Assembly (NCBI RefSeq): GCF_000423845.1
Contig: NZ_AUIT01000010.1
Coordinates: 1 to 64,000 of the forward strand
From: Thermodesulfobacterium hveragerdense DSM 12571
GTDB lineage: Bacteria; Desulfobacterota; Thermodesulfobacteria; Thermodesulfobacteriales; Thermodesulfobacteriaceae
Length of the DNA: 64,000 nucleotides
Direction: 5' to 3'
A program made the position numbers and the translations under genes. Below, in pieces: positions 38,256-43,202 of the stretch (positions are counted from its first letter, which is position 1; each line of letters opens with the position of its first letter). The notes beneath the pieces were generated by a model. The model was not told where the DNA came from. It did not search any database and saw nothing but the letters and a program-made list of their open reading frames with translations.

Positions 38256-38560
38256 AAGGTGATTTTTTAAGTATAGAGGAGTTTATCAAAAAAGAAAAGG
38301 AAAAAGCTCGTAAACTTAGACAAACAAGATGGTGGAGAAGACAGTTAGAAAGAGGGATGTGTTATTATTGTGGAAGAAGAGTAGGTGTGAAAAACCTTAC
38401 GATGGATCATAAAATTCCTCTTTCAAGAGGAGGCACCTCAGACAGGCTTAATATAGTCCCTTGTTGTAAGGAATGTAACAATAAAAAAAGATATCTTTTG
38501 CCTTGGGAATGGGAAGAATACACTAAAAAACTCAAATCCGAAAAAGTAGATGGAGAATGA
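38252..38560 (+). CDS. HNH endonuclease-domain protein
   Basis: This 102-residue protein has the zinc pair CYYCG, the HNH core MDHKIPLSRGGTSDRLNIVP and the second pair CKECN, and so is a complete HNH nuclease fold with a basic N-terminal helix (KARKLRQTRWWRRQLERG). There is no sign of an intron, intein or phage around it. It lies inside a housekeeping operon, overlapping cmk by 4 nt and ending 1 nt before glmS. The role is unknown; a host repair or RNA-related nuclease is as likely as a selfish one. Confidence 0.88.
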   Translation: MKGDFLSIEEFIKKEKEKARKLRQTRWWRRQLERGMCYYCGRRVGVKNLTMDHKIPLSRGGTSDRLNIVPCCKECNNKKRYLLPWEWEEYTKKLKSEKVDGE

Positions 38561-38561
38561 T

Positions 38562-40406
38562 ATGTGCGGAATAATAGGGTATATAGGAGATAGACCGATC
38601 ATTCCTGTTTTGTTGGAAGGTTTAAGAAGGCTTGAATACAGGGGTTATGATTCAGCAGGGATAGTGTTTTTAGAAGATGAAGAAATAAAAATAGTTAAGA
38701 CTAAAGGAAAAATCTTAAACTTAGAAGAAAAACTCTTTAATGATTTCCCTAAGAAAGCTAAAGCTCCTGGGTTAGGACATACCAGATGGGCTACCCATGG
38801 AGAACCTTCTGACGAAAACGCCCATCCTCATTTTGACTGTCACAAATCTTTAGCCTTGGTGCACAACGGCATCATAGAAAATTACTATGAGTTAAAGACT
38901 AAACTTATAGCTAAAGGTCATAAGTTTTACTCAGCAACTGATACTGAAGTAATCGTGCACTTAATAGAAGATTTTTTAAACCAAGGGATACCACTTAAAG
39001 AGGCGTTTTTTAAGGCTCTAAAAGAACTAAAAGGTGCCTATGCTGTGGCTTTGATTCATAAAGAAAATCCAGATTTCATCTTGGTTGGAAGAAACCAAAG
39101 TCCTGTAGTAATAGGTTTAGGGCAACAAGAAAACTTTATAGCCTCTGACATCCCTGCCCTTTTACCTTTTACTAAAGAAGTTTTGTTTTTAAACGACGGG
39201 GAAGTAGCTATCCTGAGCAAATATCAAGTAGAAATCTATGATTTATCAGGCAATCCTGTTGCAAGAGCCCCATATCATGTGACCTGGGATATAGCCTCAG
39301 CTGAAAAGGGTGGTTTTGACCACTTTATGCTAAAAGAAATCTATGAGCAACCTGAAGCCATAAAAAACACGATGTTAGGAAGGATTGATTTGGATAAAAA
39401 CCAGATTGATTTTTCTCAGGAAGGATTAGACCTAAAATTTTTAAAGGGAATACAGCGATTTTATATCGTTGCTTGTGGTACCTCTTATCATGCTGGATTG
39501 GTGGCAAAATATCTCATAGAAAAAGAGTTAGGTCTTCCTGTAGAGGTAGACATTGCCTCTGAATTTAGGTATAGAAATCCTATCTTGGATGAGAAAACCC
39601 TTTTCATAGGAATTTCACAATCAGGAGAAACAGCTGATACCCTTGCCAGTTTACGTTTAGCTAAAGAGAAAGGTGCTAAAACCCTTTCTATCTGTAATGT
39701 GGTAGGAAGTACTATCGCCAGAGAAAGCGAGGTTGTATTATATACTAAAGCTGGGCCTGAAATAAGTGTGGCTTCTACTAAGGCTTTTTCTACTCAGGTT
39801 TTAACCTTTATCCTCTTTACCTTTTATCTAAAACAGCTATTATTCGGAGAAAATGAAAAAAAACAAAAAATTGAGGCCTTGATAAAACTATCATCTCAAC
39901 TGAAAATTTTTATCGAAAAGGTCCATCCTAAAGTTAAAACTTTGGCTCAAAAGTGGTATCAAGCACAAAATGCACTTTATTTAGGAAGAAACATCCTTTA
40001 TCCTATAGCCTTAGAAGGTGCGTTAAAACTTAAAGAAATATCTTATATCCATGCAGAGGGTTATGCAGCAGGTGAGATGAAACATGGACCCATAGCCCTG
40101 ATAGAGGAAAAAGTTCCTACTGTAATCCTTGCAGCCAAAGAAACGGGCATTGTTTACGAAAAAACTTTGTCTAACGCTGAAGAAGTAAGGTCACGTAGAG
40201 GGCCTATTATCTCATTGGTAACCGAAGGGGCCAAAGAATTCCAAAAAATTTCTGACGAATACATAGAAGTTCCCTTGACTTTCTATGAATTTTTACCTAT
40301 TTTTTATGTAGTTCCTCTTCAACTTTTAGCCTATGAAATAGCTACTTTAAGAGGTTGTGACGTAGATAAACCAAGAAACTTAGCCAAAAGCGTAACAGTT
40401 GAATAA
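38562..40406 (+). CDS. glmS: Glutamine-fructose-6-phosphate aminotransferase (isomerizing)
   Basis: GlmS makes glucosamine-6-phosphate for peptidoglycan and LPS. The start is ATG 38562, because the next codon is the catalytic Cys (MCGIIGYIG) that must be N-terminal after Met removal; GGAG lies 6 nt upstream. An in-frame ATG at 38550 would bury it. The glutaminase domain (to about 240) and two SIS domains (CGTSYHAG, SQSGETADTL, SVASTKAFSTQ, ending DKPRNLAKSVTVE) are complete at 614 residues. RapZ, a GlmS regulator in E. coli, is in the same operon. I see no glmS ribozyme; only 1 nt separates it from the HNH gene. Confidence 0.98.
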   Translation: MCGIIGYIGDRPIIPVLLEGLRRLEYRGYDSAGIVFLEDEEIKIVKTKGKILNLEEKLFNDFPKKAKAPGLGHTRWATHGEPSDENAHPHFDCHKSLALVHNGIIENYYELKTKLIAKGHKFYSATDTEVIVHLIEDFLNQGIPLKEAFFKALKELKGAYAVALIHKENPDFILVGRNQSPVVIGLGQQENFIASDIPALLPFTKEVLFLNDGEVAILSKYQVEIYDLSGNPVARAPYHVTWDIASAEKGGFDHFMLKEIYEQPEAIKNTMLGRIDLDKNQIDFSQEGLDLKFLKGIQRFYIVACGTSYHAGLVAKYLIEKELGLPVEVDIASEFRYRNPILDEKTLFIGISQSGETADTLASLRLAKEKGAKTLSICNVVGSTIARESEVVLYTKAGPEISVASTKAFSTQVLTFILFTFYLKQLLFGENEKKQKIEALIKLSSQLKIFIEKVHPKVKTLAQKWYQAQNALYLGRNILYPIALEGALKLKEISYIHAEGYAAGEMKHGPIALIEEKVPTVILAAKETGIVYEKTLSNAEEVRSRRGPIISLVTEGAKEFQKISDEYIEVPLTFYEFLPIFYVVPLQLLAYEIATLRGCDVDKPRNLAKSVTVE

Positions 40407-40425
40407 AAAAGATAGGAGTAGGCTT

Positions 40426-40629
40426 ATGGAATGTAATAGGGATAAAAACCTTAAAAATTGTAATTGCTCTTATGATCCATGTCCTAAAAAGGGGATTTGT
40501 TGTGAATGTTTACATTACCATAGAAAGATGAGACAACTACCAGCTTGTTTTTTTCCACCTGAGTATGAAAAAACCTATAATAGAAGTTTTGAACTTTTTG
40601 CTAAATTAGTTTCTGAAGGGAAGGTATAG
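40426..40629 (+). CDS. DUF6485-like cysteine-rich small protein
   Basis: This 67-residue protein has seven cysteines clustered in its first 40 residues (NCNCSYDPCPKKGICCECLHYH) and then RQLPACFFPPEYEKTYNRSFE. I recognise it as the DUF6485-like family seen in anaerobic bacteria; its function is unknown, and metal binding by the cysteines is likely. The start ATG 40426 has AGGAG 8 nt upstream. A TTG at 40399 overlaps glmS and has no site. rsfS follows after 3 nt. Confidence 0.83.
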   Translation: MECNRDKNLKNCNCSYDPCPKKGICCECLHYHRKMRQLPACFFPPEYEKTYNRSFELFAKLVSEGKV

Positions 40630-40632
40630 AAA

Positions 40633-41013
40633 ATGGAAAGCAAGGTATTGGCAGAGGTAATCTTAAACTTACTTGAAGATAAAAAAGCAGAAAACATAGT
40701 GCTTATTGATGTGAAGGATAAAGTAGATTATGCTGACTATTTTATCATATGTAGTGCCCATTCAACCAAACATACTCAAGGACTTTCAGACCATGTTTTG
40801 TTTGAATTAGAAAAAATAGGTATCGAGCCTTTAGGTATAGAAGGAGCTGAGCTGGGACAATGGATAATTCTTGACTTTGATTCTGTTATAGTCCATCTTT
40901 TTTACGAACCTATACGTCAAGTTTATGCGTTAGAGGATCTTTGGATGGATTTTCCTCTTCCAAGGAAACAGGCTCAAGCCCCTCTTCCTTTGGATACTCA
41001 AGAGGAGGTTTAA
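40633..41013 (+). CDS. rsfS: Ribosomal silencing factor RsfS
   Basis: RsfS binds L14 and blocks 30S-50S joining when nutrients fall. The 126-residue protein carries VDYADYFIICSAHSTKHTQGLSD, GAELGQWIILDFDSVIVHLF and YALEDLW, all typical. It ends the long hpf operon, so one transcript holds two ribosome-silencing factors. The last 104 nt overlap the 3' end of hflX on the other strand. Confidence 0.95.
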   Translation: MESKVLAEVILNLLEDKKAENIVLIDVKDKVDYADYFIICSAHSTKHTQGLSDHVLFELEKIGIEPLGIEGAELGQWIILDFDSVIVHLFYEPIRQVYALEDLWMDFPLPRKQAQAPLPLDTQEEV

Positions 41014-42685
41014 ACAACTTTTCTTCTATTTTTGTTAAAAGTAGGTCAAGGTTATCTCCTTTTTTAGCTGAGATAGGAATGGCTTGATATCGATTAGAGA
41101 GGGCTTTTAGTAGTTGAAGCTCTGAAGGAGGTAAAAGGTCAATTTTGTTAAAAACCATCAACAAAGGATAATGTAAAAGTTCCATCTCTTCTAAAATCTG
41201 GTTTACGGTTTCTATTTGGTTTTCAAAATCTGGGTTACTTATGTCTACGACGTGAAGCAATAAGTCTGCTGAGTATAATTCTTCAAGGGTGGCTTTAAAG
41301 GCTTTTTTAAGGTCTTCTGGTAGGTTTCTTATAAAACCTACGGTGTCTGTGATAAGAAATACTTGATTGTTTGGGGTTCTTATAGCTTTGGTTACAGGAT
41401 CAAGAGTAGCAAAAAGTTTATCTTCTGCCAGGTATTGACTTTTTGCCAAAGTATTAAACAAGGTAGTTTTGCCTGCATTGGTATAACCTATTAAGGCAAC
41501 GGTCTTAAAGGCTAATTTTTTCCTGCGTTTTCTTTTTATATCTCTTTCTTGAGAAATCTTTTCTAACTCCCTTTCTAACTTAGCAATACGGTCCTTTATC
41601 CTTCTTTTATCTATTTCTAACTTAGTCTCTCCTGGACCTCTACCTCCTATACCTCCGGTAAGTCTGGAAAAAGCATCGTCCTTAGCCCTAAGTCTTGGGA
41701 GAGTGTATTTCAACTGAGCTATTTCTACCTGGATTTTTCCCTCTTTAGACTTTGCTCGTTGAGCAAAGATATCTAAAATAAGTTGAGTTCGGTCTATAAC
41801 CCTTAAATCAGTACTCTCAGTAATGGCTCTTACTTGAGAGGGGGTAAGCTCCCGGTCAAAAATCAAAAGATTAGCACGGTTTCGCAAGGCAAGGATCATC
41901 AGCTCAAGCAGTTTTCCTTTTCCTATTACATATCTTGGGTCTGGACTTGTCTTTTTCTGAACTATTTCTCCTACCACCGTTACCCCTGCGGTACGGGCTA
42001 ACTCTCTTAACTCAAATGCCCTTCCCTCTAAATGAGGATCGTTATGTTCTCTTAAAAAAATAAGAATAGCCCTATCTTTTTGTTCCTCTACCTCCTTAAG
42101 TGGTTTTACCCGTTCAAGCTCATCCTCTAAGTTTTTTATTAGCTCTAAAAAGTTTTCTTTTAACTCCCAAACATAACATGGTCTTAAAAAATAAAAAAAC
42201 TGATTTTCTTTGTCTGAAAGAGACCCTCCTGCAAAAAACTCTGGATTAGGGATAATATGAGCTATATGAATTTTACCTGGTTCTCCGTTTGGATTAACCT
42301 CTAAAGCCCCTATTAAATCAAGTCTTAAAAGAGCAAGGTCTATCAAATCATCCTGATCAAGCTCAGAATGTGTGGTTTTAGAGGTTAAAAGATGGGTATG
42401 AACAAACCGTAAACCCTTTAACCTTGCGATGTGATCACGATATCCTCTTAATTCTGGGATTTCAATCCGGTTAAACGTACCCACTATCACATAATCTATC
42501 TCACCCTTTCGGTTAATAAGAAGGCCGACCTGACGGTTTAGGTCTGCTGAAACCTTAGCCAGTTCTCTTGCCAATTCATGAGAAATAATAGACGCAGAAG
42601 GAACCCTCCTTCTATAGAACCTTTCTAAGTTTTTTAACTCACTTGGCTTTAAACCTACGGTATATCCAAATACGTTATATCCCAT
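40910..42685 (-). CDS. hflX: Ribosome-associated GTPase HflX
   Basis: HflX splits stalled 70S ribosomes under stress. The 591 residues are longer than E. coli HflX (about 426): residues 1-200 hold an extra N-terminal region found in long HflX proteins (GLKPSELKNLERFYRRRVP), then the classical N-domain, a coiled coil with GGIGGRGPGETKLE, and the G domain with GYTNAGKT (about 398), DTVGFIRNLP and NKIDL. AGGAGG lies only 1 nt before the ATG, which is unusually close. The tail overlaps rsfS for 104 nt; both encode ribosome-stress factors. Confidence 0.95.
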   Translation of the reverse strand: MGYNVFGYTVGLKPSELKNLERFYRRRVPSASIISHELARELAKVSADLNRQVGLLINRKGEIDYVIVGTFNRIEIPELRGYRDHIARLKGLRFVHTHLLTSKTTHSELDQDDLIDLALLRLDLIGALEVNPNGEPGKIHIAHIIPNPEFFAGGSLSDKENQFFYFLRPCYVWELKENFLELIKNLEDELERVKPLKEVEEQKDRAILIFLREHNDPHLEGRAFELRELARTAGVTVVGEIVQKKTSPDPRYVIGKGKLLELMILALRNRANLLIFDRELTPSQVRAITESTDLRVIDRTQLILDIFAQRAKSKEGKIQVEIAQLKYTLPRLRAKDDAFSRLTGGIGGRGPGETKLEIDKRRIKDRIAKLERELEKISQERDIKRKRRKKLAFKTVALIGYTNAGKTTLFNTLAKSQYLAEDKLFATLDPVTKAIRTPNNQVFLITDTVGFIRNLPEDLKKAFKATLEELYSADLLLHVVDISNPDFENQIETVNQILEEMELLHYPLLMVFNKIDLLPPSELQLLKALSNRYQAIPISAKKGDNLDLLLTKIEEKLFKPPLEYPKEEGLEPVSLEEENPSKDPLTHKLDV

Positions 42686-42903
42686 GCCTCCTCTTTATAT
42701 TTTTGGTTTTGTCTAAAATTTTAATACACGTTTAGCATGTTTAAAGTCTATAACATTAAAAATTAAAAAAATTATCCCCACCAATCGGTCCCAAATTATT
42801 ATAGCCTTTATTAAACTTTTTCTAAAAATTTAGTATCATAAAGGCTTTAGTACAAATTTTAAGTATATAAATTTCTATGGTTAATAAAATCTCTGTTCTT
42901 ATC

Positions 42904-42948
42904 TTGATACTATCATAAAGTTGGTTTAAAATATTTTTAAAGTATAAA
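42904..42948 (+). promoter_or_regulatory. Two overlapping promoters before the zinc-ribbon gene
   Basis: TTGATA (42904-42909)-17-TAAAAT (42927-42932) and TTGGTT (42921-42926)-16-TATAAA (42943-42948) both point to the zinc-ribbon gene at 42968. The remaining 282-nt hflX spacer is very AT-rich and holds nothing else I can support. Confidence 0.5.
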
Positions 42949-42967
42949 AAGCTTGAGTAAAAATTAG

Positions 42968-43171
42968 ATGATAGTAGTTACAGTAAAATGTTTTAAATGC
43001 AGGCGTACCTTTGACAAGGTTTTCCCTGATAGCGAGCTTTTTTTTATGTCAAAAACCATAACCTGCCCCTTTTGTCGGTCTCTCAACACACAAAAAGTAA
43101 TGGTCAGTCAAGTACCTGATGAAAAAGAACCTAAATGCGATTTTATCATCGAGTGTCTTAAAAAAGGCTGA
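42968..43171 (+). CDS. Small zinc-ribbon protein
   Basis: A 67-residue protein with two cysteine pairs, CFKC (8-11) and CPFC (33-36), the second followed by RSLNTQKVMVSQ, and a further CDFIIEC near the end. It looks like a zinc ribbon distantly like FmdB, but it lacks the MPIYEY start. The function is unknown. There is no clear ribosome site before the ATG. It stands alone between hflX and tyrS. Confidence 0.65.
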   Translation: MIVVTVKCFKCRRTFDKVFPDSELFFMSKTITCPFCRSLNTQKVMVSQVPDEKEPKCDFIIECLKKG

Positions 43172-43184
43172 TAGTCCCATTTAA

Positions 43185-43202
43185 CCCTGCTTGAAAGCAG
43201 GG
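43185..43202. other. 18-bp palindrome between zinc-ribbon gene and tyrS
   Basis: ccctgctt-ga-aagcaggg is a perfect 8-bp inverted repeat, which would fold with a UGAA loop. Neither strand has a T-run after it, so it is a poor intrinsic terminator. It lies between convergent genes and may protect 3' ends or be a remnant of a small palindromic element. Confidence 0.4.

Follow-up and report, generated by a model that had tools for sequence, protein, structure and literature searches.

The DNA analyzed here, a stretch of 64,000 nucleotides from Thermodesulfobacterium hveragerdense DSM 12571 referred to as the window, encodes the ribosomal silencing factor RsfS and the ribosome-splitting GTPase HflX on opposite strands, with their 3′ ends running into each other. 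The rsfS gene (40633..41013, + strand) begins with ATG and encodes 126 amino acids, and hflX (40910..42685, − strand), likewise with an ATG start, encodes a long form of the protein of 591 amino acids. The identity of rsfS is based on its open reading frame and on the family models PF02410 (E 1.7e-29, residues 9-104) and TIGR00090 (E 6.7e-32). That of hflX is based on the open reading frame, on TIGR03156 (E 6.4e-135, residues 205-557) and on structure searches with the HflX model, which matched the folds of HflX/HflXr and SsGBP structures over residues 202-562. According to the open reading frame coordinates, the tail-to-tail coding overlap spans 104 bases (40910..41013, both strands), and it recurs in relatives. 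With both partners belonging to known families, lying on opposite strands and sharing their 3′ ends over more than 60 bases, this is a real long overlap. Gene names, coordinates and overlap length are as given in a preliminary description of this DNA, and its statement that the two 3′ ends are complementary holds for the shared bases 40910-41013. Since the coding 3′ ends overlap, the two mRNAs would be complementary over at least 104 bases if both are made.

The phase of the overlap, worked out from the coordinates, is 123:132, meaning that codon position 1 faces position 1 and position 2 faces position 3. Because TIGR03156 stops at residue 557, the HflX share of the overlap corresponds almost exactly to residues 558-591 beyond the family domain; the RsfS share comprises the end of its domain from residue 93 and a 22-residue tail. 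Upstream of rsfS, on the same + strand, lie glmS (38550-40406) and a small DUF6485 open reading frame (40399-40629) whose true start is uncertain.

Conservation of the overlap across the family

A search of 30 genomes of the family detected rsfS in 27, the three others (G015, G026 and G029) being 64-83% complete. Within the clade formed by genera g1, g2 and g6, rsfS was found in 20 genomes and is directly faced by hflX in 18 of them. Fifteen of these 18 convergent pairs overlap by 89-119 bases in one and the same phase. The overlap measures 104 bases in G000, G013 and G001 and, in the rest of the genus, 107 (G010), 101 (G002 and G011), 92 (G008, G004, G012 and G005) or 89 bases (G009); outside the genus, the same phase is found with 119 (G014), 110 (G022), 95 (G028) and 92 bases (G020). 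Single-contig assemblies are among those with the long overlap (G013, G010 and G005). The preliminary description had suggested conservation in relatives as a check on its account, and the overlap is conserved accordingly. In the three remaining convergent pairs the overlap shrinks to 38 bases in G007, in the phase of the long overlaps, and to 40 bases in G024 and 4 bases in G018, both in another phase. G007, although labelled g1, sits at the base of the clade in an HflX tree without support values.

No hflX was found within the 1,500-base flanks of rsfS in G003 and G006. In these two genomes hflX faces other genes, overlapping them by 33 bases in G003 (L045:1420-1452) and by 15 bases in G006 (L046 reverse complement, 1453-1467). 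The two genes also lie at separate places in seven g4/g5 genomes. In 11 of 12 outgroup genomes read, the exception being G030, rsfS is followed immediately on the same strand by what appears by eye to be the start of a phosphoglycerate mutase gene (MDGW; neighbors read at loci L023-L029, L031, L032, L137 and L138). The rsfS neighbor therefore changed when the convergent pair arose. Judged from these sequence comparisons, the overlap is old within this bacterial family.

Anatomy of the shared region

The conserved core of RsfS ends near position 40947 (conservation extends to about residue 105) and that of HflX at 41015, leaving a spacer of 67 bases between them (40948..41014, both strands). 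The spacer contains no hflX stop, and neither frame is interrupted before the rsfS stop codon at its far end (41011-41013). It encodes the poorly conserved tails of the two proteins, namely RsfS residues 106-126 and HflX residues 558 to about 579, and is 40-70 bases long across the long-overlap genomes. The HflX frame continues beyond the spacer, its poorly conserved tail being antisense to the conserved RsfS end EPIRxxYALEELW (40910..40947, both strands). It stops at 40910-40912, opposite the Pro-Ile pair of RsfS (codons 93-94). Each of the 15 long-overlap genomes has its hflX stop on the strand opposite a Pro-Ile, Ile-Arg or Val-Arg codon pair of the motif EP(I/V)R. Measured from the HflX core, the rsfS stop is at the same place in 11 of 11 long-overlap members of the genus and falls 16-40 bases inside that core in G022, G028, G020 and G014. 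Given these core and stop positions, the overlap is made up of the spacer and of whatever part of the RsfS core the HflX frame has to traverse before reaching its stop.

Both tails are predicted to be disordered. In AlphaFold models, the last helix of HflX spans residues 546-558 and residues 561-591 have a pLDDT below 50 (whole-model mean 74), and the last helix of RsfS spans residues 100-105, with residues 109-126 below 50. The input alignments held 22 and 23 sequences, and because many of these end before the tails, the low confidence there is weak evidence of disorder.

The HflX tail past the core measures 24-35 residues in long-overlap genomes, 6 residues in the seven g4/g5 genomes read and 4 residues in G007. 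Tails of 20-30 residues occur in genomes lacking a long same-frame overlap (21 residues in G024, 23 in G018, 22 in G006 and 30 in G003) and in the more distant G040, G033 and G032 (20-21 residues). In a thin alignment, the HflX overhang is poorly conserved; by eye, the tail of G003, which lies away from rsfS, carries a similar SLKEED stretch. The RsfS tail, again judged by eye, is within the length range of the outgroups.

Comparison with other convergent gene pairs

The frequency of such overlaps was estimated from a 464-kb sample consisting of the window and 20 stretches of G013, using a home-made gene caller; the rsfS-hflX pair of G013 itself falls outside the sampled stretches. Among 56 convergent neighbor pairs, 26 overlap, 7 by at least 30 bases, 4 by at least 60 and a single one, rsfS-hflX, by at least 90 bases, making it the longest convergent overlap of the sample. 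The other three overlaps of at least 60 bases involve Mutator-family transposases in two cases and a glucokinase gene facing TsaE in the third. The glucokinase/TsaE overlap in G013 spans 65 bases in the same phase as rsfS-hflX (L155:8535-9861).

Long convergent overlaps have been described before. PMC2174442 gives 123:132 as the commonest convergent phase in Escherichia coli (46% observed, against 39% expected if overlaps arise by stop-codon mutation). PMC2478687 classes 124 of 178 long convergent overlaps as misannotations and describes most plausible ones of more than 60 bases as conserved only in very close species. The rsfS-hflX pair resembles overlaps of the stop-codon-mutation type in being convergent with phase 123:132, in taking its hflX stop from the complement of the partner's coding sequence, and in an hflX 3′ end longer than in the nearest outgroups, the last likeness being tempered by the 20-30-residue tails of some genomes without the long same-frame overlap. 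It differs in that 104 bases are kept here across three genera rather than in very close species only, and in having an rsfS tail no longer than those of the outgroups. Our verdict is that rsfS-hflX is an unusually well conserved example of this known class, with an ordinary mechanism. Among the titles listed by a literature search none pointed to an rsfS-hflX overlap, although an earlier report is still possible, and nothing was found on Thermodesulfobacterium with overlapping genes.

Codon usage and selection in the overlap

In this phase the third position of each RsfS codon is paired with the second position of an HflX codon, so that silent change in RsfS should be slower if the HflX tail is useful. 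Selection was assessed by the frequency of identical codons, Fitch changes on the HflX tree, stops in unused frames, a column scan and a small neutral simulation, with G007, G018, G024, G003 and G006 as the comparison group lacking a long same-frame overlap; G001, which has the same RsfS protein as G013, was left out of these counts. The frequency of identical RsfS codons is not raised within the overlap, either among 10 genomes of the genus (0.609 observed, 0.639 expected) or among 14 genomes (0.553 and 0.572). Third-base changes per column number 3.19 in the overlap compared with 3.58 outside (rank test, p 0.58). Across the overlap as a whole, RsfS shows none of the silent-site slowing expected of an overprinted tail. 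Slow columns with 0-1 third-base changes make up 6 of 28 in the overlap and 6 of 81 outside (p 0.07). Beyond column 106 the same-codon frequency of RsfS is 0.728, against 0.593 and 0.521 expected, a value that counts amino-acid-agreeing columns only and thereby favors close pairs.

The HflX frame of the spacer contains no stop among 261 codons in 14 related genomes, where about 6% would be expected from base composition. Stops are also rare in three of the four unused spacer frames (4/261, 2/247 and 4/261; 29/247 in the fourth), so the open HflX frame is not far out of line. A single position stands out, RsfS codon 108 (Pro, CCT; 40954..40956, + strand), which lies opposite a codon for Glu or Lys in the HflX tail. 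All 14 long-overlap genomes have T as its third base, with which the HflX frame retains Glu (in 11) or Lys (in 3); the five other genomes all lack this T and have G, A, A, A and C. The column scan found this pattern nowhere else (1 of 23 columns in the overlap, 0 of 81 outside). In the neutral simulation the joint pattern arose at one column with a frequency of 0 to 0.0005, depending on the rate, for a column that was chosen after looking. Codon 108 may thus be taken as a weak hint from the sequences at a function of the HflX tail.

RNA signals between the genes

A simple consensus scan found no terminator-like site on either strand between 40100 and 42590, and in the larger region 38400-43200 it found 3 such sites, compared with 3.8 expected from shuffled sequences. 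Transcription of each gene may hence continue further into the other, no terminator-like site having been found between rsfS and hflX. The predicted folding of four stretches is unremarkable (z-scores of −0.77 to −1.66, the strongest being matched by 9 of 200 shuffles). A nested inverted repeat at about 40954-41006 could fold on both strands in the window. It was considered as a regulatory RNA element and set aside, as the fold predicted for G013 and G010 is not the same; the absence of terminator-like sites between the genes and the ordinary z-scores weigh against such an element as well.

Origin of the overlap and alternative explanations

We hypothesize, with a probability of roughly 0.8, that the overlap arose passively, each gene running on into the tail of the other, and that the conserved cores of the two partners hold it in place. 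A rearrangement in an ancestor within this branch of the family would have brought rsfS and hflX face to face with about 40-70 bases between the core ends. With a spacer free of hflX stops, and of rsfS stops before its far end, each ribosome would read on to the first in-frame stop, which for hflX would fall antisense to the EP(I/V)R codons of RsfS and for rsfS, within the genus, at the edge of the HflX core. Conservation of the partner's core would keep the stops in place, and the overlap would persist in one phase even as the spacer changes. The HflX tail would thereby have become longer than in the nearest outgroups, to be lost again in at least one relative, and the RsfS tail would have remained of ordinary length. 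In favor of this scenario, convergent overlaps are common (26 of 56 pairs) and hflX overlaps other partners in G003 and G006. Counting against it are the persistence over three genera, the stop-free HflX frame, the codon 108 pattern and the HflX tails of 21-30 residues in G003, G006, G018 and G024. The arrangement can be explained without any regulatory use, and we infer that the overlap as such has no function. The locus would then be a clean case of a long convergent overlap that may arise and last without evident function, two close conserved cores supplying or bounding each other's stop codons, and a caution against reading a tail-to-tail overlap of functionally related genes as regulation.

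Such regulation was what the preliminary description had proposed, namely transcriptional collision or antisense control. In its excludon-like form, a 3′-end duplex or colliding polymerases would let high expression of one gene lower the other. If this is true, ribosome silencing and ribosome rescue would be coupled in a thermophile. PMC7154746 describes excludon-type control between convergent genes that lack a terminator, and PMC3027695 reports convergent Rickettsia prowazekii transcripts whose ends do not lie between the two genes. The rsfS-hflX pair resembles the terminator-less excludon in being convergent, in lacking a detectable terminator-like site and in the complementary 3′ ends expected of its mRNAs, and the pair is kept in 18 of 20 clade genomes; it differs from the excludon as presented there in that its overlap is coding on both strands and known from sequence alone. 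The proposal found no support in our analysis: two stop-free frames suffice, the hflX partner is exchangeable, the overlap dwindles in three relatives, and neither a silent-site excess nor a terminator-like site nor clear structure was detected, the predicted folds being weak and variable between genomes. We regard excludon-like control as unlikely, and antisense control in general as possible but unsupported by the sequences.

The HflX tail might alternatively be a short acidic peptide that has a function and whose coding sequence is overprinted on that of rsfS, with selection on it also limiting RsfS codon choice. The codon 108 pattern and its rarity in the simulation, the SLKEED-like stretch seen by eye in G003, the tails of 21-30 residues in four genomes and the open HflX frame are all consistent with this, but the pattern concerns one column found after the fact, silent sites are not slowed overall, model confidence in the tail is low, and the tail is nearly absent in G007, short in g4/g5 and different in G018 and G024; we consider such a peptide quite improbable. 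A weakly selected variant, also improbable, would have codon 108 held T-ending during the overlap, to preserve Glu or Lys at that site of HflX, and released once the long same-frame overlap was lost. On this reading, the overlap would offer a minor natural instance in which the codon choice of one ribosome-factor gene is constrained by another. That one gene in fact ends earlier, the overlap being an annotation or sequencing artefact, is scarcely credible despite the many misannotations tallied in PMC2478687, since the stops are read directly from the sequence and 15 of 18 convergent pairs, from separate assemblies that include single-contig ones, show the same-phase overlap.

The HflX N-terminal extension and a local sequence likeness

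The long form of HflX carries an N-terminal extension of about 200 residues (42083-42685, − strand), for which neither a Pfam family nor a PDB sequence match was found in the window protein. The HflX fold searches covered mainly residues 202-562, i.e. the core. The best match to HflX nevertheless starts at residue 1-6 in 51 of 60 genomes. Inspection of the alignment by eye revealed an HTH-x8-S-x2-D stretch in the extension with invariant H96 and H98, which we take to be reminiscent of the JAMM/MPN motif. At the end of the hflX core, 31 bases (41009-41039) are 90% identical to contig C32 of the same genome (L002:1501-1531); this likeness is probably due to chance, and by eye both stretches could encode the same short KIEEKLFK.
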